Shown here: positions 13,135-26,314 of the stretch, piece by piece
Layout of the letters: each line of letters opens with the position of its first letter
Numbering within the stretch: the stretch's first letter is position 1
NCBI RefSeq assembly: GCF_014695725.1
Contig: NZ_JACJOU010000033.1
Span: forward strand, 62,001 to 126,000
Origin: Microcoleus sp. FACHB-672
Lineage (GTDB): Bacteria > Cyanobacteriota > Cyanobacteriia > Cyanobacteriales > Oscillatoriaceae
DNA: 64,000 nucleotides
Reading direction: 5' to 3'
Program-made: the position numbers and the translations under genes
The notes under the pieces: model-generated
What the model was told of the DNA's origin: nothing
What the model saw: only the letters and a program-made list of their open reading frames with translations
Databases searched by the model: none

Positions 13135-15972
13135 GTGCTTAAAACGTCCGTTCAGCAACCGCTTCATCTACAAGCCCCGCACGAAGTTCAAGAGTCAACC
13201 ACTCACAATCACCAGAGGACAGACGTGGCACTGCATGAGAGTGAAGAGCGATTTCGTCGATTTGTAGAACACGTACCGGCAGCAGTCGCGATGGTAGACC
13301 GGCAAATGCATTATTTGGCCGTTTCGCGTCGGTGGCAGACAGAGTACGGCTTGGAATCCGAAAACCTTATTGGTCGATCTCACGACGAATTCTTTCCAAC
13401 CGCCAATCCAGACTGGCAGCAAATTTACCATAACTGTTTAGCCGGCGAACACGGACACAGCCAAGAAGAATCTCTCACTAGACCTGATGGCAAACAAGAT
13501 TGGGTCAAATGGGATATCCAGCCTTGGCATAACTGTGCAGGTGAAATCGGTGGCTTAATCTTATTCACCGAAGTTGTCACCGAACACAAGCATCTCGCTC
13601 AAGCGCTACAGCTAACTCAGTTTGCAATGGACAAAGCGGCTGATGCAGTCTTTTGGATGACCTCAGATGCAAGATTAAGCTACGTCAATGAAGCCGCCTG
13701 CCACTTGCTGGGGTACAGCGCCGAAGAACTACTCTCGCTGAGCGCTCACGACATCAACCCTGCATTTTCTGGCAACCTGTGGGTGGAACACTGGCGAGCA
13801 ATCAAGCAATTTCAATCCTTCACCTTTGAAACCACCTACCGCACCAAAGAAGGTCTCCTGTTTCCTGCCGAAGTCACCGTCAATTATTTGGAATTCAAAG
13901 GTGCTGAGTACCATTGCGCCTTTGTGCGAGACATTACCGAACGCAAACAAGCCGAAATCGCACTGCAAAACGCCAACGAGCAACTCCAGACAGTCTTGGA
14001 TGCCGTACCCGGATTAGTTTCCTGGATCGGGTGCGATCTGCGCTACTTGGGGGTAAACCGGCATTTAGCCGCCGCCCTTAACTTGCCCCCAGAAAGCTTT
14101 CTGGGTCGGGAAGTGGGCTTTTTAGACACCAGTCCCAAATTTGCCGACTTTGTGCGTGAGTTTTTTGCCTCTCCAGACAAGACAGCCGCCCAAGAAGTGT
14201 CTGTGGGCTTTGAAGGAGGTCAGAGCAGTTATTTAATCGTCGCTCAAAAATACTGTCAGGGGACAAGAGCTGTTTTTGTCGGGGTGGACATTACCAAACG
14301 CAAACAAGCGTCTGACGAGTTGCAAAATGCCAAAGATCAACTCCAGGCTGTATTGGATGCCGTACCCGGGTTAGTGTCTTGGTTAGATTCCGATTTGCGA
14401 TATCTCGGAGTTAACCGCCATGTTGCCGCCGCCTTAAATTTGCCGGCTGAAACCTTTGTCGGGAGAGAAGTTGGTTTTATGGAAAGCCGGCCTGGATTTG
14501 CCGAATTTGTGCGCCAGTCTTTTGCTAGCCCGCAACGAACAACTTCTCAAGAAATTTGTGTCGATCATGACGGCGAACGGCGAAGTTATTTGATGGTGGC
14601 TCAAAAGTACAATCAAGGAAAAAGAGCGGTCTTTGTTGGGCTAGACATTACTGAACGCAAGCAGATGGAAGCCGAACTGCGACGCAGTAAAAATCTGTAC
14701 CGCACACTTGCGAGGAACTTCCCCAACGGATCGGTGTGCTTATTTGACCACAACCTCCGCTATACCTTAGCAGAGGGCACCGAGTTAGCTAAAATCGGAC
14801 TTTCTAAAAAGTTAATGCAAGGCAAAACCTTGTCAGAAGTGTTTCCACCCGAAACCAGCATCCTTAGCGAACCGCTTTACCGGGCGGCACTTGCAGGGGA
14901 AGAGACGGTGGCTGAAGTGCCCTATGCCAACCGGCTTTATCTAACCCACACCCTGCCGGTGAGAAACGAACAGGGAGAAGTGCTCGCCGGCCTGGTGATG
15001 ACACAAAATATCACCCTGGCCAAACAGGCAGAAGAAGCGTTGCGCCGGTCTGAAGAGAACTTCAGGCAACAAGCCCAACAGTTAGAACTGGCTTTGCAAG
15101 AACTCCAAGCCACTCAAACTCAACTGATTCAAACCGAAAAAATGTCTTCTCTAGGGCAATTGGTTGCCGGCGTTGCCCATGAAATTAATAACCCAGTTAG
15201 TTTTATTTACGGTAATCTTGCCTACGCACGTCAGTACACTCAAGACTTGCTGAACCTCGTCGATCTTTATGCCAAACACTATCCCCATCCTGTAGCAGAA
15301 ATTCAAAGCCATATTGAGCGCGTCAGCCTCGATTTCCTGACCCAAGATTTTCCTAAACTCCTGGCTTCTATGCAGGTGGGGGCAGATCGCATTCGCGAAG
15401 TTGTGCTTAGCTTGCGGAATTTCTCACGCTTGGATGAAGCCCAGAAGAAGCCGGTGGATATTCACTCTGGAATAGACAGCACGCTGCTAATTTTGCAAAA
15501 TCGGCTGAAAGCTAAGGCAGGGCGTCCAGGTATTGAGGTGATTAAAGAATATGGAGATTTTGCTTTAGTGCCTTGTTATGCCGGCCAACTGAATCAAGTG
15601 TTTATGAATCTGCTCAGTAATGCCATTGATGCGATTGAAGAATCTTTTGCTAGCGAGCAAAAATTATCTGCTTCGCACGCCGAACAACGCACAAAAGACA
15701 AAGGACTGCTTCGGATTTGCACATCCCTCATCAACGGTAAATCCCTGGAAATTCGCATTAGCGATAACGGCCCTGGTATGACTGAGCAAGTCAAAGCTAA
15801 GCTATTTGACCCGTTCTTCACAACCAAGCCGGTGGGCAAAGGGACAGGTTTAGGATTATCCATTAGCCACCAAATTGTAGTAGAGAAACATGGCGGAAAG
15901 CTAACTTGTAAGTCTGTTATGGGTGAAGGTTCAGAATTTATCATTTCGATTCCAATTGACACGAAAGTTTAG
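13135..15972 (+). CDS. PAS-domain sensor histidine kinase
   Basis: A 945-residue cytoplasmic sensor kinase. GTG 13135 is the likely start, with GGAGGT at 13121-13126. Five PAS-type domains precede the kinase: two divergent ones (residues about 40-280), two that are near copies of each other (about 283-395 and 400-515, each starting AVPGLVSW), and a fifth (about 522-640). The kinase core has His682 in GVAHEINNPVSF, the N box NQVFMNLLSNAIDA, G1 ISDNGPGM, F box FFTTKPVGKGTG and G2 TGLGLSIS. There is no membrane segment and no receiver. No response regulator is adjacent. Its catalytic core closely resembles that of the receiver-kinase at 25.1 kb. Confidence 0.93.
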   Translation: MLKTSVQQPLHLQAPHEVQESTTHNHQRTDVALHESEERFRRFVEHVPAAVAMVDRQMHYLAVSRRWQTEYGLESENLIGRSHDEFFPTANPDWQQIYHNCLAGEHGHSQEESLTRPDGKQDWVKWDIQPWHNCAGEIGGLILFTEVVTEHKHLAQALQLTQFAMDKAADAVFWMTSDARLSYVNEAACHLLGYSAEELLSLSAHDINPAFSGNLWVEHWRAIKQFQSFTFETTYRTKEGLLFPAEVTVNYLEFKGAEYHCAFVRDITERKQAEIALQNANEQLQTVLDAVPGLVSWIGCDLRYLGVNRHLAAALNLPPESFLGREVGFLDTSPKFADFVREFFASPDKTAAQEVSVGFEGGQSSYLIVAQKYCQGTRAVFVGVDITKRKQASDELQNAKDQLQAVLDAVPGLVSWLDSDLRYLGVNRHVAAALNLPAETFVGREVGFMESRPGFAEFVRQSFASPQRTTSQEICVDHDGERRSYLMVAQKYNQGKRAVFVGLDITERKQMEAELRRSKNLYRTLARNFPNGSVCLFDHNLRYTLAEGTELAKIGLSKKLMQGKTLSEVFPPETSILSEPLYRAALAGEETVAEVPYANRLYLTHTLPVRNEQGEVLAGLVMTQNITLAKQAEEALRRSEENFRQQAQQLELALQELQATQTQLIQTEKMSSLGQLVAGVAHEINNPVSFIYGNLAYARQYTQDLLNLVDLYAKHYPHPVAEIQSHIERVSLDFLTQDFPKLLASMQVGADRIREVVLSLRNFSRLDEAQKKPVDIHSGIDSTLLILQNRLKAKAGRPGIEVIKEYGDFALVPCYAGQLNQVFMNLLSNAIDAIEESFASEQKLSASHAEQRTKDKGLLRICTSLINGKSLEIRISDNGPGMTEQVKAKLFDPFFTTKPVGKGTGLGLSISHQIVVEKHGGKLTCKSVMGEGSEFIISIPIDTKV

Positions 15973-17372: not shown

Positions 17373-18167
17373 ATGATTTTGAAAAACTTACTCCAACAAC
17401 TAGCTACCGTTTCAGGAGTTTTGGTTCTGGGACTCGTGGTAGGGTCAGGCTTCAACTCGCCGGCACAGGCTAGCTCACAACCGGCTCTAAGGGATCAAAA
17501 CCTATCCCTTCCTCAAAAAGTTAGTGAAGCCTTCCAACCGCCGGATCGGGGGGCACCGCCCAGCACAGCCGATGGTGGCGCAAGAGGAAGTTGCGGCTTG
17601 TACAAACCGGGTGAAAAAGTTCTCACCGCCTTGACGCCAATGAATTCTTTGGCATTGACGGTATCAGACTTCCCGACTTTTTTGTGGTATGTTCCGAAAT
17701 CTTCAGCCAACACCTTGGAATTCACCCTGCGGGATGAAACGGATCAGGAGGTGATTTATAAAACTCAATTAGCGATGCCAAGTCAAGCCGGCATCGTCAG
17801 CTTTAGCTTGCCGGCAGGTGCTTTACCTCCGCTAGAAGTAGGTAAAATGTACCACTGGTATTTGGCAATCGTTTGTGATCCAGATGACCGATCTGGGGAT
17901 ACGGTCGCAGACGGGTGGATCGAGCGAACCAAAGTCAGCCCAACTGTGGCGAACAAGCTAAAGAATGCTCCTATTAACGAACTGCCCTCCATTTATGCCA
18001 GAGAAGGTATTTGGCATGAAGCTGTGGCTAGCTTAGCTCAACTGCGGCGGAACAATCCGCAAGATTTAACCCTCATTTCAAGATGGGAACAACTCTTGAA
18101 TTCAGTTCAACTTGGCAGCTTCGCTCAAGAACCGCTTGTTGAGGATCGTCAAATAAGTCAGGAGTAA
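17373..18167 (+). CDS. DUF928 domain protein, exported
   Basis: A 264-residue protein with a signal peptide ([16 protein letters not shown] start, cleavage near SPAQAS) followed by a DUF928 domain: [74 protein letters not shown] and a Trp-Ile-Glu-Arg block. The family is common in cyanobacteria; its function is unknown, and it is often encoded beside CHAT and CHASE2 proteins. Start ATG 17373 has AAAAGGGAG upstream. Only 7 bases separate its stop from the start of the TPS-CHAT gene, so the two are almost certainly one transcript and may act together outside the cytoplasmic membrane. Confidence 0.9.
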
Positions 18168-18174
18168 CAGTAGG

Positions 18175-21100
18175 ATGTCGTCACGGGGAAGAAGCAGAAA
18201 CACCCTGATTCTCGGAATCTTTCTGGGAGTAGGAGCAATTGTTTGGATAGAAGCGCTTGATTTAAAGCCGGTACTCGCTTTACCGATCGTTCCTGCTGCC
18301 GATGGCACCGGCACCATTGTTACCCCTGACGGCAACCGCTTTGATATCGGGGGGGGAAAGTTTTCTCAAGATGGAGCGAACCTATTCCACAGCTTGGAGC
18401 AGTTTGGCCTCAATTCAGGCCAGACTGCAAACTTTCTCTCCAACCCGGAAATTCGCAATATTTTAACTCGGATTACCGGCGGAGATGCATCAATCATTAA
18501 CGGATTAATACAAATAACCGGCGGCCACTCAAACTTATTTTTAATCAACCCAGCCGGCATCGTATTTGGCCCAAACGCATCATTAAACGTGCCCGCAGCG
18601 TTCACCGCCACAACCGCTAACCGCATCGGCTTTAATGGGGGCGAGTTTAACGCAGAGGGCAACAACAACTACCCAGCCTTAGTCGGCACTCCCAGCGCCT
18701 TTACCTTCTCACCTTCCCATACTGGCGCAATCATCAATAGTGGCGCTCTAGCTGTAAAATCAGGCCAAAACATAACCCTGCTCGGTGGCACCGTCATCAA
18801 CACCGGCAGCGTATCAGCCCCCGCAGGTCAAATCACCCTCGCCGCAGTCCCAGGCGAAAGCACCGTACGCATCAGCCAGCAAGGACATCTTCTCAGCTTA
18901 GAAGTCAAACAGAATTCCCAAAACATCCAAGCGACAATGCCGGCAGTGCAATTGCCCGAATTGCTCACAGGCGGCGGCACAAATCACGCAACAGGTTTGA
19001 CAGTCAACAACGATGGCACCGTACAGCTAAGCGGTTCCGGTCTAAAAGTGCCCAATCAAACCGGCGTAGCAATCATAGCCGGTTCAGTTGATGCCTCAAA
19101 CACTCAAGGATCACCCGCTTCACCGGGCGGAAATATTAACATCTTAGGCAATACCGTCGGACTAGCCGGTGCCAAAATTAACGCCTCAGGCGCAGCCGGT
19201 GGCGGGAATATCCGGATCGGCGGCGATTATCAGGGGATGGGCTTAGTGCCCAATGCTTCCCAAACCTACGTCAGCAAAGATTCAGAAATAGCCGCAGACG
19301 CCATAACAGCCGGCAATGGGGGTCGAATCATCGTTTGGTCAGACAAAGTCACCCGATTTTATGGCAATCTCAGCGCTCGTGGCAGCAACAATGGTGGGAA
19401 TGGGGGCTTCGCGGAAATCTCAGGCAAAGAAAACCTCGCCTTTGATGGCACAGTTGATCTGAGTGCAGCGAACGGACAATTGGGGACTTTGCTGTTAGAC
19501 CCAGACAATATCGTCATTGTCAATGGCAATAACGCAGCAGATGACGACCAGTTAGATGATGGTCAAATATTAGCCGGCGATGATCCAGGACAAACCTACA
19601 CAATTTCCCAAAATAACATTCAAAGGCTTTTGCGAGATGGAGCCGTTATCTTAGAAGCGACAAACGATATCACGATTGATAGTGAGTTTCAGGTAAGCGG
19701 CACCAATGGCTCACTAACTTTTACAGCCGATGCGGACAGTGATGGGAATGGGGCATTTGTGGCGCAAAATATGCGCTTCCCAAACCCAGGAACGAACGAG
19801 ATAGAGCTAAACATTTCAGGAGCGAGTATAACAATTGGCGACATTGCAACAGAGCTGAGAAGTATTAACTTCAACAGCACAGGTTCGATGAATCTGGGCG
19901 CTATAGACACCACTCATCCCTCTGGATCTGCGGGGAATGTTACCCTCAATGCCGACGGGGACATTGATGTGGTATCTATTAACGCCCAAGGTGGTAATAA
20001 CCAAGGGGGTAATGTTGATATCACTACCCAGCAATTTTTACGAGTCGACGGCTCTTTTGTTGACCAAAATGGCATAGCCGCCAGCATTTCTAGTGCCGGC
20101 TCTCCGGCAGGTTCGATTACCATCAACCACGGAGGTGGCAGCACTGACCCAGTAACACCCTTTATCATCGGGGATGCCAGCACTAACGGAACTGCCGCAG
20201 GCATTACAGCTGGGGCTGACAATACAGTTCAAATCAATCCTTCACCCTCAGAACCTCCAGCACCAACCCCCTCAGAACCTCCAGCACCAACCCCCTCAGA
20301 ACCCCCAGCACCAACCCCCTCAGAACCTCCAGCACCTAATCCCACACCCATTCCGGCACCAACACCGGGCACTGGTTCTCTACCAACACCTTTGCCGGCA
20401 CCGTCACCCATTCTGACGCCATCCCCGTCAAACGGCCCAATTTCAACACCCACGCCAGTGCCGGCACCAACCCCAGCACCAACGCCAGCATCAACTCCAG
20501 TACCAACACCAACGCCAGCATCAACTCCAGCATCAACTCCAGTGCCGGCACCAACGCCAGCATCAACTTCAGTACCAACACCAACTCCAGCATCAACGCC
20601 AGTACCGGCACCGACACCAACCCCAGTTTCAACGCCGATACCTAATCCCACACCCATTCTGGCACCAACACCGGGCACTGGTTCTCTACCAACGCCCTTG
20701 CCGGCACCAACACCCATTCTGACGCCGTCTCCGTCAAACAGCCCAATTTCAACACCCACGCCGTCTCCGTCAAACAGCCCAATTTCAACACCCACGCCGT
20801 CTCCGTCAAACAGCCCAATTTCAACACCCACGCCGTCTCCGTCAAACAGCCCAATTTCAACACCCTCTGCAGGTGAAGTCGATTCAATTGCAACGCCGGT
20901 ACCCTCTGCAGGTGAAGCCGATTCAATTGCAACGCCGGCACCCTCACCCACTCCAACGCCGTCGCCCAGCAGTTACTCATCTTCACCAAAAACCCGAAAT
21001 TCTGCTCACACTTCAACGGGTTTACAAACAGGTGCGAAACCCCTGCCACGCAGAGCAAGAACAACAGAAGCTCCCCCATTAGAAGTACCTGAATTTACAG

Positions 21101-22524
21101 GGAGTTTGAGCGACTTTTCAAGTGTTATCATTTCCAAGTTCTCAGTTGTTGGCTCTACTGGACAAGTCTGGAGCGATTCATTTGTCAACAAGGCAGAGTC
21201 CTTTTCTATCTCAACAGAAAATAACCTTTCCGTTTACAACTCAGCAAATGAGCAAGCGCCAGTCATACGCCTGACTAGCCGCAGCGACATTCAAAACCTG
21301 ATTGAGAAAGGCAACTTTGCTCAAGCCGTGGCAATAACTGATCGCTTTTATAGCGAAGAATTTGAGGGGTATTTAGGCCGGCAGTTCCCAGTATCTTATT
21401 TGTCTTATACAGGCATACAAAGCAAACTGAGTGAAATGGCTGCCATTACCGGCACCAAGGCAGTTGTTATCTATACCTTTGTGGAAGCCGATCAATTAAA
21501 TTTGCTGCTAGTTCCACCCACAGGCAAACCCATTTATAAAAGCGTGCCGGCAGCCAATGCTAAAGTGCTGATGGAACAAGTGAGAGAACTTCAGCAACAA
21601 ATTGGCGATCCCACTCAACGCCGAACCACAAGCTATTTAGCAGCATCCCAGCAACTCTATCAGTGGATCATTGCTCCGCTAGAGGGTGAGTTGCAACAGC
21701 TAGAGGTGGATACACTGATGTTCAGTATGGACACAGGGTTGCGGACATTGCCGGTAGCAGCTTTACATAACGGTCAGCAGTTTTTGGTAGAAAAATACAG
21801 TTTGAGCTTGATTCCTAGCCTAGTTTTGACCGATGACCGCTATGCAGATGTGAAAAATGCTTCAGTCCTAGCAATGGGAATGTCAGAGTTTCCTGACCAA
21901 CCTCCTTTGCCGGCAGTGCCGGTGGAAATCGCCTCTATCTCGGAAAATCTGTGGTCAGGACAAGCTTTTCTCAATCAAGCGTCTACCCTAGAAAATTTGC
22001 AACGAGAACGCAGAAAGCAGTCGTTTGGCATTATTCACATAGCTACTCACGGAGAGTTTAAACCCGGTGAAGTCAATAACTCCTACATCCAGTTATGGGA
22101 TGAAAAGCTACGCCTCGATGAGATGGAGCAGTTAAAATGGCATGACCCACCTGTAAATTTGTTGGTGCTCAGTGCTTGCCGCACAGCGGTTGGAGATTCA
22201 CAAGCCGAACTCGGCTTTGCAGGGTTAGCGGTGCAGACCGGCGCGAGTTCGGCCCTAGCAAGTATGTGGTACGCTAACGATGCCGGCACTCTAGGGCTGA
22301 TGAGCGAGTTTTACAAGTCTTTGCACTCAGCCCCCATTAAGGCAGAAGCATTAAGAAGGGCGCAGATAGCAATGCTTCAGGGAGACGTGCATTTGCAAAA
22401 CGGTCAGATGATGGGGAACTTCGGGAAACTGTCACTGCCTCCAGAATTGACCGCACTAGGGAATCGAAACTTAAAACACCCTTATTATTGGGCCGGCTTT
22501 ACAATGATTGGCAGTCCTTGGTAG
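18175..22524 (+). CDS. Two-partner-secretion (TPS) protein with C-terminal CHAT protease domain
   Basis: A 1449-residue fusion. Residues about 1-40 are an export signal; about 40-165 form a haemagglutinin/TPS secretion domain ([36 protein letters not shown]). Beta-helix-like repeats run to about residue 680. A Pro/Ser/Thr-rich repeat linker spans about 685-930. The C-terminal 370 residues are a CHAT (caspase-HetF) domain with the dyad His1292 in IATHGEF and Cys1335 in VLSACRTA, and the usual ending [13 protein letters not shown] domains normally pass an outer-membrane FhaC/ShlB pore; no such gene is in the window. ATG 18175 lies 7 bases after the DUF928 gene. The fusion implies a secreted or surface caspase-like protease; the substrate is unknown. 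Confidence 0.93.
20229..20960 (+). repeat. Tandem repeats encoding Pro/Ser/Thr-rich linker
   Basis: Within the TPS-CHAT gene. At the left are four copies of a 24-base unit encoding PTPSEPPA-like octamers. In the middle are degenerate 12-18-base units encoding [10 protein letters not shown]. At the right are four near-perfect copies of a 36-base unit (encoding [12 protein letters not shown]) and two copies of a unit encoding SAGE(V/A)DSIATP. A segment encoding [21 protein letters not shown] occurs twice, so larger blocks were duplicated too. All units are multiples of three and keep frame. Confidence 0.9.
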
Positions 22525-22860
22525 TAAGAAGCATAATTTTTTAAATTTGTCGAGTGGGTAATAACTGAGATATGATCTTGTTGGTTAATGCAATCCGCGA
22601 GCACTATAGGAAAGCCGCTCAGACGAATGCGAAAGCCCGAACTGTGAGGCTGCCGCCGACAAACCAACTCGTCCTTTAATTCAGGCATCTTCTTCTGACA
22701 GCATTTTGGGTTTAGCCGAGCACAAAGCTTGCTGCTGCATCACTGCCATCCCAAGGCTTTTTAATTTGAGCATCTACAATCTAAAATCCGATGACTCTGC
22801 TCATCCCCTCATACCTTTTTTCTAGTTGCGCTTAGCTAATAAACTAACAACATTATATTT
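22525..22860. other. Intergenic region before CHASE2 kinase
   Basis: About 336 bases between the TPS-CHAT gene and the CHASE2 kinase. It holds a 35-codon frame (22572-22679, starting MILLVNAIREHY) with no ribosome site, which I do not call. No clear T-run terminator follows the TPS-CHAT stop, so read-through into the kinase genes is possible. Confidence 0.4.
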
Positions 22861-22875
22861 ATGTGGATCAAGGCT

Positions 22876-22884
22876 AAAAAAAAA
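22876..22884 (+). other. A9 tract separating start codon from CHASE2 kinase frame
   Basis: Nine consecutive A follow ATG 22861 (MWIKAKKK...). In this frame translation stops after 15 codons at TAA. In the next frame the residues after the A run are [18 protein letters not shown], which is the expected N-terminal membrane segment of CHASE2 kinases and joins the long kinase frame. One extra A, or a -1 slip on the A run, restores an intact protein starting at 22861. The choices are a sequencing error, a real frameshift, or slippage-controlled expression. Confidence 0.7.
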
Positions 22885-22922
22885 CATGGGAGTGGCGCGG
22901 TGGATTAATTATCGCCCCTAGT

Positions 22923-25034
22923 GTGGCAGCATTTGTAATTCTTATGCGAATGCTTGGCTTCTTCCAGCTGTTAGAATTGTCCGCTTTAGATCAATTATTT
23001 CGCCTGCGTCCCTTAGAAAAACCCGACTCACGCATTGTCATTGTTGGCATCGATGAGTCCGATTTGGAAAAAGTAGGAAAATGGCCGATTCCGGATACTG
23101 TACTGGCGCAATTGCTGAAGAAAGTGCAACAGCAGAAACCGAGAGCGATCGGCCTGGACATCTATCGCGATTTGCCGGTAGAACCTGGTTACGGAGAATT
23201 AGTTCAGGTTTTTGAGTCTACCCCAAACTTGATCGGTATCCAGAAAGTCGTTGGCTATGGACCCAATCAGACTGTCGCTCCATCGCCGGTGCTCAGTAAG
23301 TTGGGTAAAACCAGTGCCAATGATTTTCCTTGGGATGTGGATGGCAAGATCCGTCGTGGCTTTTTGTATTTAAAAGGCAAAGAAGGCAAAAATGTATATA
23401 GTTTAGGATTTAAGCTAGCTTGGCTATATCTGGAAGAAGAAGGCATTCAACCAAAGATGAAAAATGAAATTCAGATTCAGCTAGGTAAAGCAATATTTAC
23501 GCCTTTTGAAACAAATGATGGTGGATACGTGGGTGCTGCCGATCAAGGCTATCAAATTTTGTTGAACTACCGGGGACCGCAACAGACATTTGAAACAGTA
23601 TCCCTAGGGGATGTATTAGAAAACAAAATCAAGCCAGACTTGATGCGTGATCGCATTGTACTGATCGGCTCTACAGCAAAGAGTATTAAAGATTTCTTGC
23701 TAACTCCCTACAGTAGCAACTTAGTGTCTATTCCTGAGCCAATGGCCGGCGTCGAAATTCATGCGAACATGACCAGCCAAATTATTAGCGCCGCTTTAGA
23801 GGGAAGATCACTCTTAAAAACGCTGAGTGAACCACTAGAGTGGCTGTGGCTTTTGAGTTGGTCTGCGCTTGGTGCCACACTGACCTGTAAATGGAGATAC
23901 ACCAACGGTGTAGCTAGAATTTCATTTCTGGGAACCGCCGGCAGAATAGTGCTATTCAGTGGCATTCTCATCGGCTCTGGCTACATCGCTTTTGTCGAAA
24001 ACTTGTGGGTTCCTGTATTTCCAGCCTTACTGACTTTGATCGGAGCTACGATTGTTAAAACAGGTTACACCCTTTGGGAAAATCTGAAACTTTCTTACAA
24101 GCAAATAGAGGAGTATTCACGCACGCTTGAAGTAAAAGTTGAGCAGCGCACCCAAGAATTACAGACTAAAAATGAAGAACTTGATGGAACTTTGCAACAG
24201 TTGAGAGCGGCACAGAAACAGATGATCGCTCAAGAGAAATTGGCTTCTTTGGGTTCTCTCACCGCCGGAATTGCCCATGAAATTAGAAATCCTCTTAATT
24301 TTGTTACCAATTTTGCCACCATTTCTGTGGATTTGGCGCAAGAACTTAAAGAAGAGATTGAAAATCAAACAGAAAACTTAGAAGCCGAGGCTGTTGAATA
24401 TATCAATGAAATTTTTACTGATTTAACAGAAAGCGTGGTTGAAATAGAAAAACAGGGCAAAAGAATCGAAAGTATTCTTTTGGGAATGATGATGCACGCT
24501 CAGCAAGAAACCGGCCAACCAGAACTGACAGCGCTCAATTCCTTATTAGCCGAATCAGTTCAACTTGCTTATCAGAGTTTCCGGGCTAATAAAGAAACTG
24601 TTGAAATTATTTTGAAACTTCAGCATGATGAGCCTTTAGGCAACTTTTATATCGTTCCCCAAGATATTAGCAAAGCTTTTGTTAATATTATCAATAATGC
24701 TTGTTATACAGTTAATCAGAAGAAAAAAGTGCTGGGCGATAAGTTCACTCCAATTATTGAAATAAAAGCTATCAACCTGGAAGATCGTGCAGAAATTTAC
24801 ATAGGAGATAACGGTGAGGGCATTTCACAAGATATTATAGATAAAATATTCAATCCATTTTTTACAACCAAACCGCCTGGAGAAGGAACAGGTTTGGGTT
24901 TGTCTATCACGCATGAAATTATTGTCGGCCAGCATCAAGGAGAAATAAAAGTCGAAAGCGTTCCAGACTCGCATACAGAATTTATCATAGTCTTGCCAAG
25001 AAACGCGCTTGAGAGCCAAACAGTTGTTCGGTGA
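22923..25034 (+). CDS. CHASE2-domain sensor histidine kinase (5' end out of frame)
   Basis: A membrane sensor kinase. The frame runs on from GTG 22923, but the true N-terminus is probably encoded from ATG 22861 and joined across the A9 tract. Parts: N-terminal membrane helix, extracytoplasmic CHASE2 sensor ([19 protein letters not shown] through [11 protein letters not shown] and [13 protein letters not shown]), three membrane helices (about residues 300-385 from GTG), coiled coil, then kinase with His452 in [13 protein letters not shown] box [10 protein letters not shown]1 [10 protein letters not shown] box [12 protein letters not shown] and G2 TGLGLSIT. It lies 20 bases before the receiver-kinase gene, so the two form an operon. 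The ligand is unknown. Confidence 0.88.
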
Positions 25035-25054
25035 GAATAAAACGGGAGTAAACT

Positions 25055-26314
25055 ATGCCACCCAAAATTTTATTTGTAGATGATGAATTACCTTTTGAAG
25101 CCCTAATTAAACGACATTTCAGGAAAGAAATTAGGGCAAAAATGCTGGATTTAATTTTTGCTTCTAATGGCGCAGAAGCGCTAGCAAAGTTGAAGGCAGA
25201 AGCTCCTGTTGATCTCGTTGTCACCGATATCAATATGCCAGTAATGGACGGTCTAACATTGCTTGATAAAATTAATGTTTTAGATCCAACCCTCAAAACA
25301 GTGGTGCTTTCAGCCTATGGGGATATGAAAAATATTAGAACAGCGATGAATCGGGGTGCTTTTGATTTTCTCAATAAGCCAATTGATTTTCAAGACTTAG
25401 AAATTACAATTAACAGAGCTTTAGATCAGGTACGGCAAATCAGAGAAAACCAACAAAAACTGTTATCTGCTCAGACTCAACTGATCCAAAGCGAAAAAAT
25501 GTCTGCACTCGGCCAGCTCATTGCCGGTGTAGCGCACGAAATTAACAACCCAGTTGGCTATATTACCGGCAATATTGAGATTGCTGAAGAGTATCTTCAA
25601 GACTTAATTGATCTCTTAAATCTCTACCAGGAACAGTTTCCTGATCCAGGGCCAGAAATTTCTAAGAAAATGCAGGATATTGGCCTGGATGCTTTGGTCA
25701 ATGATATGCCTTTACTGATCTCATCCATGAGAGAGGGAACGGATCGCATTTGCTTGCTGAGTACGTCACTGCGAACGTTTTCTCGTTCCGATATGTCTTC
25801 TAAGGTAGCCTTCAATATCCATGATGGACTTGATAGTACCCTGCTAATTTTGAAGTACCGGCTTAAAGGGAAGATGAACCGGCCTGCTATTGAAGTGATT
25901 AAAGAATATGGGCCATTGCCGTTAGTGATGTGCTACCCCGGACAGCTCAATCAAGTGTTTATGAATATCATTGCGAATGCAATTGACGCCATTGATGAGT
26001 TTAGTGATGAGGCATTATCTAATGAATCTAATGAAATCAAGGAAGTTTCTAATATCGTTAAAATTCGCACGGAGTTAACGGCAGATGAGAAGGGGGTTGT
26101 GATTCGGATTTCTGACAATGGGCCAGGAATACCAGAAGATGTGCAACAGCACGTGTTTGACTACTTATTCACCACAAAACCCGTCGGCAGTGGTACAGGT
26201 TTGGGATTGTCGATTAGCTATCAAATTGTGGTGGAAAAACACGGAGGCCAACTGAGTTGTGTGAGTGCGCCCGGACAGGGCGCAGAGTTTATCATCGAGA
26301 TTCCCCTTGAGTAA
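25055..26314 (+). CDS. Response-regulator receiver/histidine kinase hybrid
   Basis: A 419-residue protein with an N-terminal receiver domain (Asp9-Asp10, phosphoacceptor Asp58 in VVTDINMPVMDG, Lys in FLNKPID), a helical linker and a histidine kinase core with His161 in GVAHEINNPVGY, N box NQVFMNIIANAIDA, G1 ISDNGPGI and G2 TGLGLSIS. It lacks membrane segments. Placed 20 bases after the CHASE2 kinase, it is a good candidate to receive phosphate from that kinase and pass it on. GGGAGTAA precedes ATG 25055. Its kinase core shares long identical runs with the PAS kinase at 13.1 kb, so the two are paralogs. Confidence 0.93.
   Translation: MPPKILFVDDELPFEALIKRHFRKEIRAKMLDLIFASNGAEALAKLKAEAPVDLVVTDINMPVMDGLTLLDKINVLDPTLKTVVLSAYGDMKNIRTAMNRGAFDFLNKPIDFQDLEITINRALDQVRQIRENQQKLLSAQTQLIQSEKMSALGQLIAGVAHEINNPVGYITGNIEIAEEYLQDLIDLLNLYQEQFPDPGPEISKKMQDIGLDALVNDMPLLISSMREGTDRICLLSTSLRTFSRSDMSSKVAFNIHDGLDSTLLILKYRLKGKMNRPAIEVIKEYGPLPLVMCYPGQLNQVFMNIIANAIDAIDEFSDEALSNESNEIKEVSNIVKIRTELTADEKGVVIRISDNGPGIPEDVQQHVFDYLFTTKPVGSGTGLGLSISYQIVVEKHGGQLSCVSAPGQGAEFIIEIPLE

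Follow-up and report, generated by a model that had tools for sequence, protein, structure and literature searches.

The window analysed here is a 64,000-nucleotide stretch of Microcoleus sp. FACHB-672 (contig NZ_JACJOU010000033.1, positions 62,001 to 126,000 of the forward strand). It carries four collinear genes encoding a DUF928 protein, a predicted exoprotein that joins a two-partner-secretion (TPS) domain to a caspase-like CHAT domain (TPS-CHAT), a CHASE2-histidine kinase (CHASE2-HK) and a receiver-histidine kinase (RR-HK) (Table 1). A first-pass annotation had proposed this set as a candidate signalling system; we indeed recovered the four plus-strand open reading frames (ORFs) in the positions it described, with the domains it named (Pfam) and with the spacing inside the two close pairs exact to the base. 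Here we describe the conservation of the set, a frame junction in its kinase gene, and a proposal for how the four products may work together.

ORFs were called with a simple longest-ORF script. In CHASE2-HK, Pfam recognised CHASE2 (E 1.8e-72) and HATPase_c (1.1e-18), together with HisKA just under its cut-off (6.4e-6; 26.6 bits, cut-off 26.9), and RR-HK carries a sub-threshold HisKA match (1e-4) besides its Response_reg and HATPase_c domains. Counted from the listed ORF starts, the gaps are 7 bp between DUF928 and TPS-CHAT, 398 bp between TPS-CHAT and CHASE2-HK, and 20 bp between CHASE2-HK and RR-HK; the middle gap measures 396 and 395 bp in two sister species and 42-197 bp in 10 collinear relatives. 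Two promoter-like plus-strand sites lie at or in the middle gap (22508-22537 and 22547-22576) and no plus-strand terminator-like site is listed there, in a scan that was near chance overall and uninformative (25 promoter-like sites against a shuffle mean of 18.1, and 11 terminator-like sites against 12.2).

Table 1. Features of the four-gene locus, in window coordinates (aa, amino acids).
Feature	Position	Strand	Basis
DUF928 protein, 264 aa	17373..18167	+	Pfam DUF928 4.2e-62
TPS-CHAT exoprotein (predicted), 1449 aa	18175..22524	+	Pfam TPS 7.2e-41 and CHAT 1.3e-66
TPS secretion domain, aa 46-246	18310..18912	+	Pfam; 50-aa block identity, aa 51-250
Pro-rich repeat linker, about aa 690-950	20242..21024	+	Block identity 0.22-0.35; length-variable
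CHAT caspase-like domain, aa 1157-1447	21643..22515	+	Pfam; block identity
Predicted catalytic His1292 (HIATHG)	22048..22050	+	CHAT alignment
Predicted catalytic Cys1335 (LSACR)	22177..22179	+	CHAT alignment
Gap between the gene pairs, up to the proposed kinase start	22525..22860	+	
Proposed CHASE2-HK start, M-W-I-K-A-K-K-K, into the A9 run 22876-22884	22861..22884	+	Orthologue N-termini
CHASE2-HK, 703 aa read from GTG, N-terminus probably truncated	22923..25034	+	Pfam
RR-HK, 419 aa	25055..26314	+	Response_reg 2e-23, HATPase_c 4.9e-24
PAS-rich histidine kinase HK1, upstream neighbour, probably outside the set	13135..15972	+	

Conservation of the gene set and its neighbourhood

When the DUF928 protein was searched against 243 genomes of the order, 71 contained a match at E 1e-45 or better. 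We compared 20 of the first 25 places outside the genus in this search (G005, G141, G096, G080 and G065 were left out; G005 corresponds to L041/L107, with a contig ending inside the TPS gene), and all four genes stand together in 12 of these relative loci, which represent six genera in two families besides the window's own genus (g3; g12, g38, g56 seven times, g62, g89). Ten of the 12 keep the order and strand of the window (L144-L150, L152, L153 and L159), with TPS and CHAT as two overlapping ORFs in L150; in L151 and L154 the kinase pair is inverted and adjoins DUF928 on the opposite strand, the two pairs being divergent yet adjacent. Identity to the window in the 12 loci is 46-57% for DUF928, 45-50% for TPS-CHAT (60% over the CHAT part of L150), 58-68% for CHASE2-HK and 63-75% for RR-HK. 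The pairing of a kinase gene with an adjacent receiver gene, as in a classical two-component pair, is kept in 12 of the 20 loci. As for the other eight, four have DUF928 and CHASE2 without TPS-CHAT (L155, L156, L158 and L163), L161 has TPS-CHAT without CHASE2 in the stretch, L157 has neither, and contig ends truncate L160 and L162.

Within the genus, DUF928, both kinase genes of the set and HK1 are under purifying selection. The ratio of nonsynonymous to synonymous substitution (dN/dS), calculated with a purpose-written Nei-Gojobori script for DUF928, CHASE2-HK, RR-HK and HK1 in the window and the sister species G001 and G002 (in G002 the copy of the set is split over two contig ends, within the exoprotein gene), was 0.105-0.190 for DUF928 and 0.117-0.137 for CHASE2-HK over 2112 bp, with the frame open throughout. 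RR-HK gave 0.034 over its first 900 bases (window versus G001) and 0.077 (G001 versus G002), and HK1 gave 0.094-0.107.

To place these loci against a wider background, we counted neighbours of the 66 DUF928 domains in eight genomes with complete match lists, three of which belong to one genus; one DUF928 fragment row (G039, in frame with its neighbour), one broken row for CHASE2 (G006) and all of G003 were left out, and the expected counts assume random placement, treat related genomes as independent and use genome sizes rounded except for that of the window's genome (G000). Within 5 kb of DUF928, CHASE2 was found in 43 cases (1.15 expected; 41 on the same strand), CHAT in 39 (3.75 expected; 37 on the same strand) and TPS in 18 (1.56 expected; 17 on the same strand). 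The first-pass annotation had stated that CHAT, DUF928 and CHASE2 genes often adjoin one another in cyanobacteria, and had made its proposal depend on a neighbourhood conserved beyond chance; the relative loci and these counts, about 37-fold (CHASE2) and 10-fold (CHAT) above expectation, bear out both. Gaps between DUF928 and a same-strand CHASE2, CHAT or TPS neighbour are short, 35 of 69 being below 60 bp, with 10 of these overlaps. In the window's own genome, six of seven DUF928 genes have CHASE2 within 10 kb and the seventh lies near a ShlB-type pore gene, and across the phylum DUF928 was present in 82 of the 292 genomes drawn and in none of 14 control genomes.

Genes may cluster without any functional link, for example in shared islands or as hitchhiking duplicates, and these genomes do hold many paralogues of all four families. 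However, the expectation from copy numbers is far exceeded, the order is kept at 45-75% protein identity, and 20 control regions at chosen coordinates in three genomes contained no DUF928, TPR-CHAT or TPS cluster member, with a single weak CHAT match (G016:C1:310155). This explanation, already disfavoured, is therefore extremely improbable. The linkage of the four genes is real and old, and they very probably work in one pathway.

Besides the window type (order C), two arrangements recur, TPS - CHAT - DUF928 - CHASE2 (order A) and CHASE2 - DUF928 - TPS (order B). In a tree of 97 DUF928 domains, neighbour classes change 25 times, compared with 56.3 times when labels are shuffled, and none of 200 shuffles was as low; this is a quick tree in which 40 of the 94 inner branches are weak, and near-identical copies from the same genus favour the clustering. 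Since clades follow neighbour class in this way, DUF928 lineages tend to stay with their partner set.

One could read the set as a machinery for exoprotein maturation or quality control, in which CHAT would process TPS exoproteins (itself and its neighbours), DUF928 would be a periplasmic TPS accessory, and CHASE2 would sense the state of the envelope for regulation. The presence of TPS within 10 kb of 35 of the 66 DUF928 domains (2.99 expected) and of POTRA_2, the TPS pore domain, within 5 kb of eight (0.45 expected) is in line with this reading, as are the direct succession of order A in 9 of 61 loci and the fusion of TPS and CHAT in the window and its relatives. However, the partner found most often and nearest to DUF928 is CHASE2, not TPS (33 versus 11 of the 66 domains have one within 1 kb), and L045, L108 and L158 are examples of DUF928-CHASE2 pairs with neither TPS nor CHAT in the stretch seen. 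We consider a maturation role rather unlikely, and favour a signalling role for the four genes.

Two further observations concern the surroundings of the set. The upstream kinase HK1 was considered as a fifth member and rejected, because it adjoins the set only in the window's own genus: both sister species have it next to the set, and it was not found in the 13 other-genus loci compared, where the best match to it is RR-HK itself in 12 and another kinase (38%) in L161. In L010, L017, L024, L033, L042 and L047, DUF928 lies near a ShlB/POTRA_2 pore gene, and two of the eight cases counted above are in other loci; L010, which was scanned, has a transglutaminase-like gene upstream, and the other five have ORFs of similar size and place.

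A nine-adenine frame junction in the kinase gene

In the 12 four-gene loci the CHASE2-HK orthologue has 725-792 aa, compared with 703 aa in the window. Seven of these orthologues (L146-L150, L152 and L153) start with M-W-A-K-V-K-[LR]-K-I-W-E-W-R, save for three extra residues in L150, and read in one frame; the other five starts are longer or different (L144 keeps KIWEWRG, L145 has MWKK...QWRR and L159 MWAKFKQK). The counterpart in the window opens in the next frame, where ATG 22861 begins M-W-I-K-A-K-K-K and meets the main frame at a run of nine A (A9, 22876-22884) over codons 6-8. Upstream of GTG 22923 the main frame reads K-K-T-W-E-W-R-G-G-L-I-I-A-P-S, with a stop before it and no ATG, GTG or TTG. 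When ten A are read in place of nine, the product begins MWIKAKKKTWEWRGG..., with the same spacing as MWAKVK[LR]KIWEWR of the seven relatives. The GTG start lies inside the first membrane segment as defined by the relatives, and only a reading across A9 gives this segment in full. The first-pass annotation was right about a CHASE2 kinase at this place, but the listed ORF start at 22923 is probably wrong, the expected N-terminus being that from ATG 22861.

The A9 run is identical in the three species of the genus compared, and the 64 kb contain no other run of nine or more A or T. ORFs of at least 300 aa in the compared loci, 1.24 Mb in total, have only two A runs of nine or more on their coding strand, and no A run of seven or more was seen near the start of the 16 CHASE2 genes checked. 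Selection against A/T runs becomes visible at a length of nine in a large share of the 108 bacterial genomes of one survey, and Thermus dnaX slips at nine A (PMC1088944). Since A9 is common to three species in which the kinase has a dN/dS of about 0.12, slippage or frameshifting is likely, and judging from the sequence it is probable that slippage or -1 frameshifting at A9 yields the whole CHASE2-HK.

The alternatives are translation from the GTG and slow decay. In the latter case the kinase gene would be decaying in the genus, A9 would be an inactivating mutation, and the set would no longer work here, which agrees with a main frame that has a stop just upstream and no start codon for the expected N-terminus. 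However, the frame is open and constrained over its 2112 bp, to a degree similar to that of DUF928, RR-HK and HK1, and the junction falls on the only A or T run of this length in the window. We therefore regard decay as very unlikely. If slippage is true, only a fraction of transcripts would give the full-length receptor. The junction is also a concrete case of plain ORF calling shortening a constrained sensor kinase.

Predicted exported parts and receptor outputs

The N-terminus of DUF928 is signal-peptide-like by eye. An AlphaFold2 model built from eight sequences shows an Ig/FN3-like beta-sandwich followed by four C-terminal helices, with a predicted local distance difference test (pLDDT) score of 82-92 per ten-residue block over residues 81-250. 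Foldseek returned two PDB matches at E 0.001 or better, both with a TM-score to the query of 0.26 (maximum 0.32 among the 50 matches listed), and no solved structure scored below E 0.07 in a profile search. An enzymatic role was considered and rejected, since the Foldseek matches are to generic sandwich domains, a few being portions of glycosidases; judged by its model, DUF928 is predicted to resemble a binding protein more than an enzyme.

TPS-CHAT consists of a signal-peptide-like start (by a crude rule), the TPS domain, a middle stretch, the Pro-rich linker and the CHAT domain. Its N-terminal region is of the TpsA type, as NCBIfam TIGR01901 (5.6e-22) also indicates. Across 14 aligned proteins (the window and 13 relatives), mean identity in 50-aa blocks is 0.51-0.71 over the TPS region and highest in the CHAT domain (0.60-0.83 over aa 1151-1449), with the Pro-rich linker the least conserved part; total length differs by species through the Pro-rich repeats, from 1449 aa here to 1655 aa in G001. 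A repetitive minus-strand ORF over the Pro-rich region (20229-20951) is probably not a gene. The His and Cys of the dyad are present in 62 of 62 aligned CHAT domains; these were found with a profile grown from the window CHAT, so that divergent CHATs lie outside the sample, only domains longer than 220 aa were kept, and L089-L091 duplicate genes already present in other loci. H1292 and C1335 are taken to be the catalytic pair, as expected in the CHAT/caspase family. Compared with solved structures, the CHAT segment found a single weak chain (E 0.05). Export was also considered as a mark of DUF928-linked CHATs and this idea was dropped, as many unlinked CHATs of the genome satisfy the same crude signal rule.

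A cognate TpsB pore gene was not found beside the set, there being no POTRA_2 within 10 kb of the window DUF928. Because this genome has three POTRA_2 genes for 13 TPS domains and none stands beside the set, we assume a shared TPS pore. TPS and TPR-CHAT are separate proteins in L013 of the same genome (1594 and 843 aa) and a single 2288-aa protein in L019 of G001, through either fusion or fission. A Pro-rich and CHAT fragment in L113 (G000:C23:1-4000) and a TPS fragment (G000:C16:27-386), both at contig ends, are possibly a second TPS-CHAT of the window type broken by assembly.

On the receptor side, the ectodomain blocks of aligned CHASE2-HK proteins are 0.63-0.78 identical and the kinase blocks 0.49-0.80. 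Among 48 of 55 CHASE2 proteins scanned (two orthologue copies and five others were left out, and sister-species copies inflate the counts), 24 carry a nucleotide cyclase domain, nine HATPase_c, six GGDEF, one SpoIIE and 11 a CHAT match. Because the outputs vary while the outer genes stay, the kinase relay of the window appears to be one output among several; the arrangement is that of one extracytoplasmic module with exchangeable cytoplasmic signals (cyclase, GGDEF or kinase). In the window, the caspase-like domain and CHASE2 lie on separate genes, in contrast to metacaspase-CHASE2 fusions, and none of the four proteins has a cyclase domain (Pfam) that would place the set among Pycsar- or CBASS-type systems. 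A text search for a SAC-like Cys motif before CHASE2 found none in 12 CHASE2 proteins, mostly of the CHAT-fused kind. L013, L019, L026, L110, L111 and others encode CHASE2 proteins whose long N-terminal part is CHAT-like in those scanned and seems to lack the Cys motif; their genes adjoin DUF928, and the loci scanned (L013, L020 and L110) have a DUF1822 gene upstream.

The same genome holds a sister operon on contig C25 (L012:600-12781) with the order CHAT - DUF928 - CHASE2-cyclase - Apyc1-like hydrolase - MscS channel with a cyclic nucleotide monophosphate (cNMP)-binding domain - TPS, and L036 and L060 are arranged similarly, with a hydrolase and a cNMP-binding gene. The L012 operon looks like an extracytoplasmically gated cyclic-nucleotide channel system. 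It also bears on the idea that the set is an extracytoplasmic alarm for defence or self-recognition, in which the outer CHAT, DUF928 and TPS parts would detect phage, predator or kin and CHASE2 would trigger a stress or death response: the cyclase of this operon matches PADLOC PycC at 5e-25, the set is patchy within the order, as the share of genomes with a DUF928 match indicates, and a published cell-death scheme includes CHASE2-bearing orthocaspases, although CHASE2 was not identified in its own 98 sequences (PMC7475262). However, PADLOC gave only two weak domain-level matches for the four proteins of the window (BovA, 1.1e-5; LeoBC, 4e-4), and DUF928, both kinases and the CHAT domain show constraint and not rapid change. 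A defence role is thus improbable, and we retain envelope signalling as the preferred explanation.

Proposed signalling mechanism and known systems

We propose that the four genes form one envelope-to-cytoplasm signalling system. TPS-CHAT would be exported by Sec and cross the outer membrane through the shared two-partner-secretion pore, which would place CHAT outside on a flexible Pro-rich stalk. DUF928 could then act as an exported, non-enzymatic binding protein, an adaptor between the CHAT exoprotein and the CHASE2 receptor. The ectodomain of CHASE2-HK would read the state of the CHAT/DUF928 pair, with DUF928 free, bound or cleaved, and set the kinase, from which phosphate would pass to the receiver of the neighbouring RR-HK and then onward to partners. 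Related operons have similar outer parts next to CHASE2 receptors whose output is a cyclase or GGDEF domain. In the window's own genus, production of a full-length receptor would depend on slippage of RNA polymerase or the ribosome at A9, which may set the receptor dose. For the signalling scheme of the first-pass annotation, the part that fits is CHASE2 as the receptor portion of the kinase, together with the candidate export signals on TPS-CHAT and DUF928; cue sensing, phosphate transfer and protease activity of CHAT keep the standing of proposals. The whole chain, from a CHAT exoprotein and DUF928 adaptor read by CHASE2 to a phosphorelay, is plausible, and we put it somewhat below an even chance.

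Several points weigh against this interpretation. Gene linkage need not mean contact, and DUF928, some copies of which lie near a TPS pore gene, could serve secretion only. The full set is missing from eight of the 20 relative loci, two of them cut by contig ends, and 23 of the 66 DUF928 domains are without CHASE2 within 5 kb. The 398-bp gap between the two tight gene pairs, together with the divergent pairs in L151 and L154, speaks for two transcription units over one. Pfam matched no DNA-binding output domain among the four proteins, the receiver leading instead into a histidine kinase domain. The CHASE2 ectodomain model is weak (mean pLDDT 68.8), with no fold match at 0.001 and no sequence match up to E 1. 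The A9 junction could instead reflect a loss, common to the species of the genus, that removed part of the first membrane segment and left a weak GTG as the start. Finally, we know of no activity for this CHAT subtype.

Taken together, we tentatively suggest a new class of envelope signalling, to which we would give appreciably less than an even chance, in which surface CHAT exoproteins and a DUF928 adaptor drive interchangeable CHASE2 receptors (phosphorelay, cyclic nucleotide or cyclic di-GMP). An extracellular caspase-type protease event would become an intracellular second message, and obligatory A9 slippage would tune the receptor level in the window's genus. These cyanobacterial genomes are rich in DUF928, exported CHAT proteins and CHASE2 receptors; a single module whose outputs can be exchanged would turn orphan families into a testable signalling pathway, and bacterial caspase-like proteins would gain a possible role outside the cell.

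Consistent with the first-pass statement that no function is assigned to the set, in open-licence papers we found no function in print for DUF928 or the set and no description of a DUF928/CHAT/TPS/CHASE2 module. The parts are known families; their combination and its exchangeable outputs were found nowhere in that literature. PMC3482391 contains neither CHAT nor CHASE2 as a whole word. Among the closest published systems is a WD40-CHASE2-DUF928 gene cluster of NOSP7, for which the authors infer extracellular signal transduction; it shares DUF928 near CHASE2 with the window, no CHAT or TPS is named in the passage on it, and it is reported only in NOSP7 among the seven cyanobacteria surveyed (PMC5587647). 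The same paper remarks that Synechocystis sll1891, a DUF928 gene, responds to acid stress. CHASE2 ends are also present in proteins proposed to act in immunity (PMC8195603). Trichodesmium has a metacaspase (orthocaspase)-CHASE2 fusion (PMC2853523, PMC3501461), a single protein whose caspase-like domain is in the cytoplasm, whereas here the genes are separate, CHAT is on a predicted exoprotein, and DUF928 and a kinase relay are added. HetF of Anabaena is a CHAT protein (PMC8406250). Csx29 of Craspase, a TPR-CHAT protease, has a partner-controlled CHAT peptidase; Csx29 is CRISPR-guided, whereas the window CHAT is predicted to be exported and receptor-linked (PMC10028731, PMC9729208). Filamentous-haemagglutinin-type TPS exoproteins share the near-N-terminal TPS domain, and TPS-CHAT differs from them by its C-terminal CHAT domain and by the absence of a pore gene beside the set. 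With the A9 slippage genes (Thermus dnaX and 'pseudo pseudogenes', PMC1088944) the kinase gene shares a nine-A frame junction in a constrained gene, which here falls on codons 6-8 of a sensor kinase and where slippage is predicted only. The window kinase itself, read across A9, would probably have the ordinary architecture of CHASE2 sensor kinases (Zhulin et al. 2003, via PMC8195603), from which it is set apart by its dedicated, predicted exported neighbours and its A9 junction.

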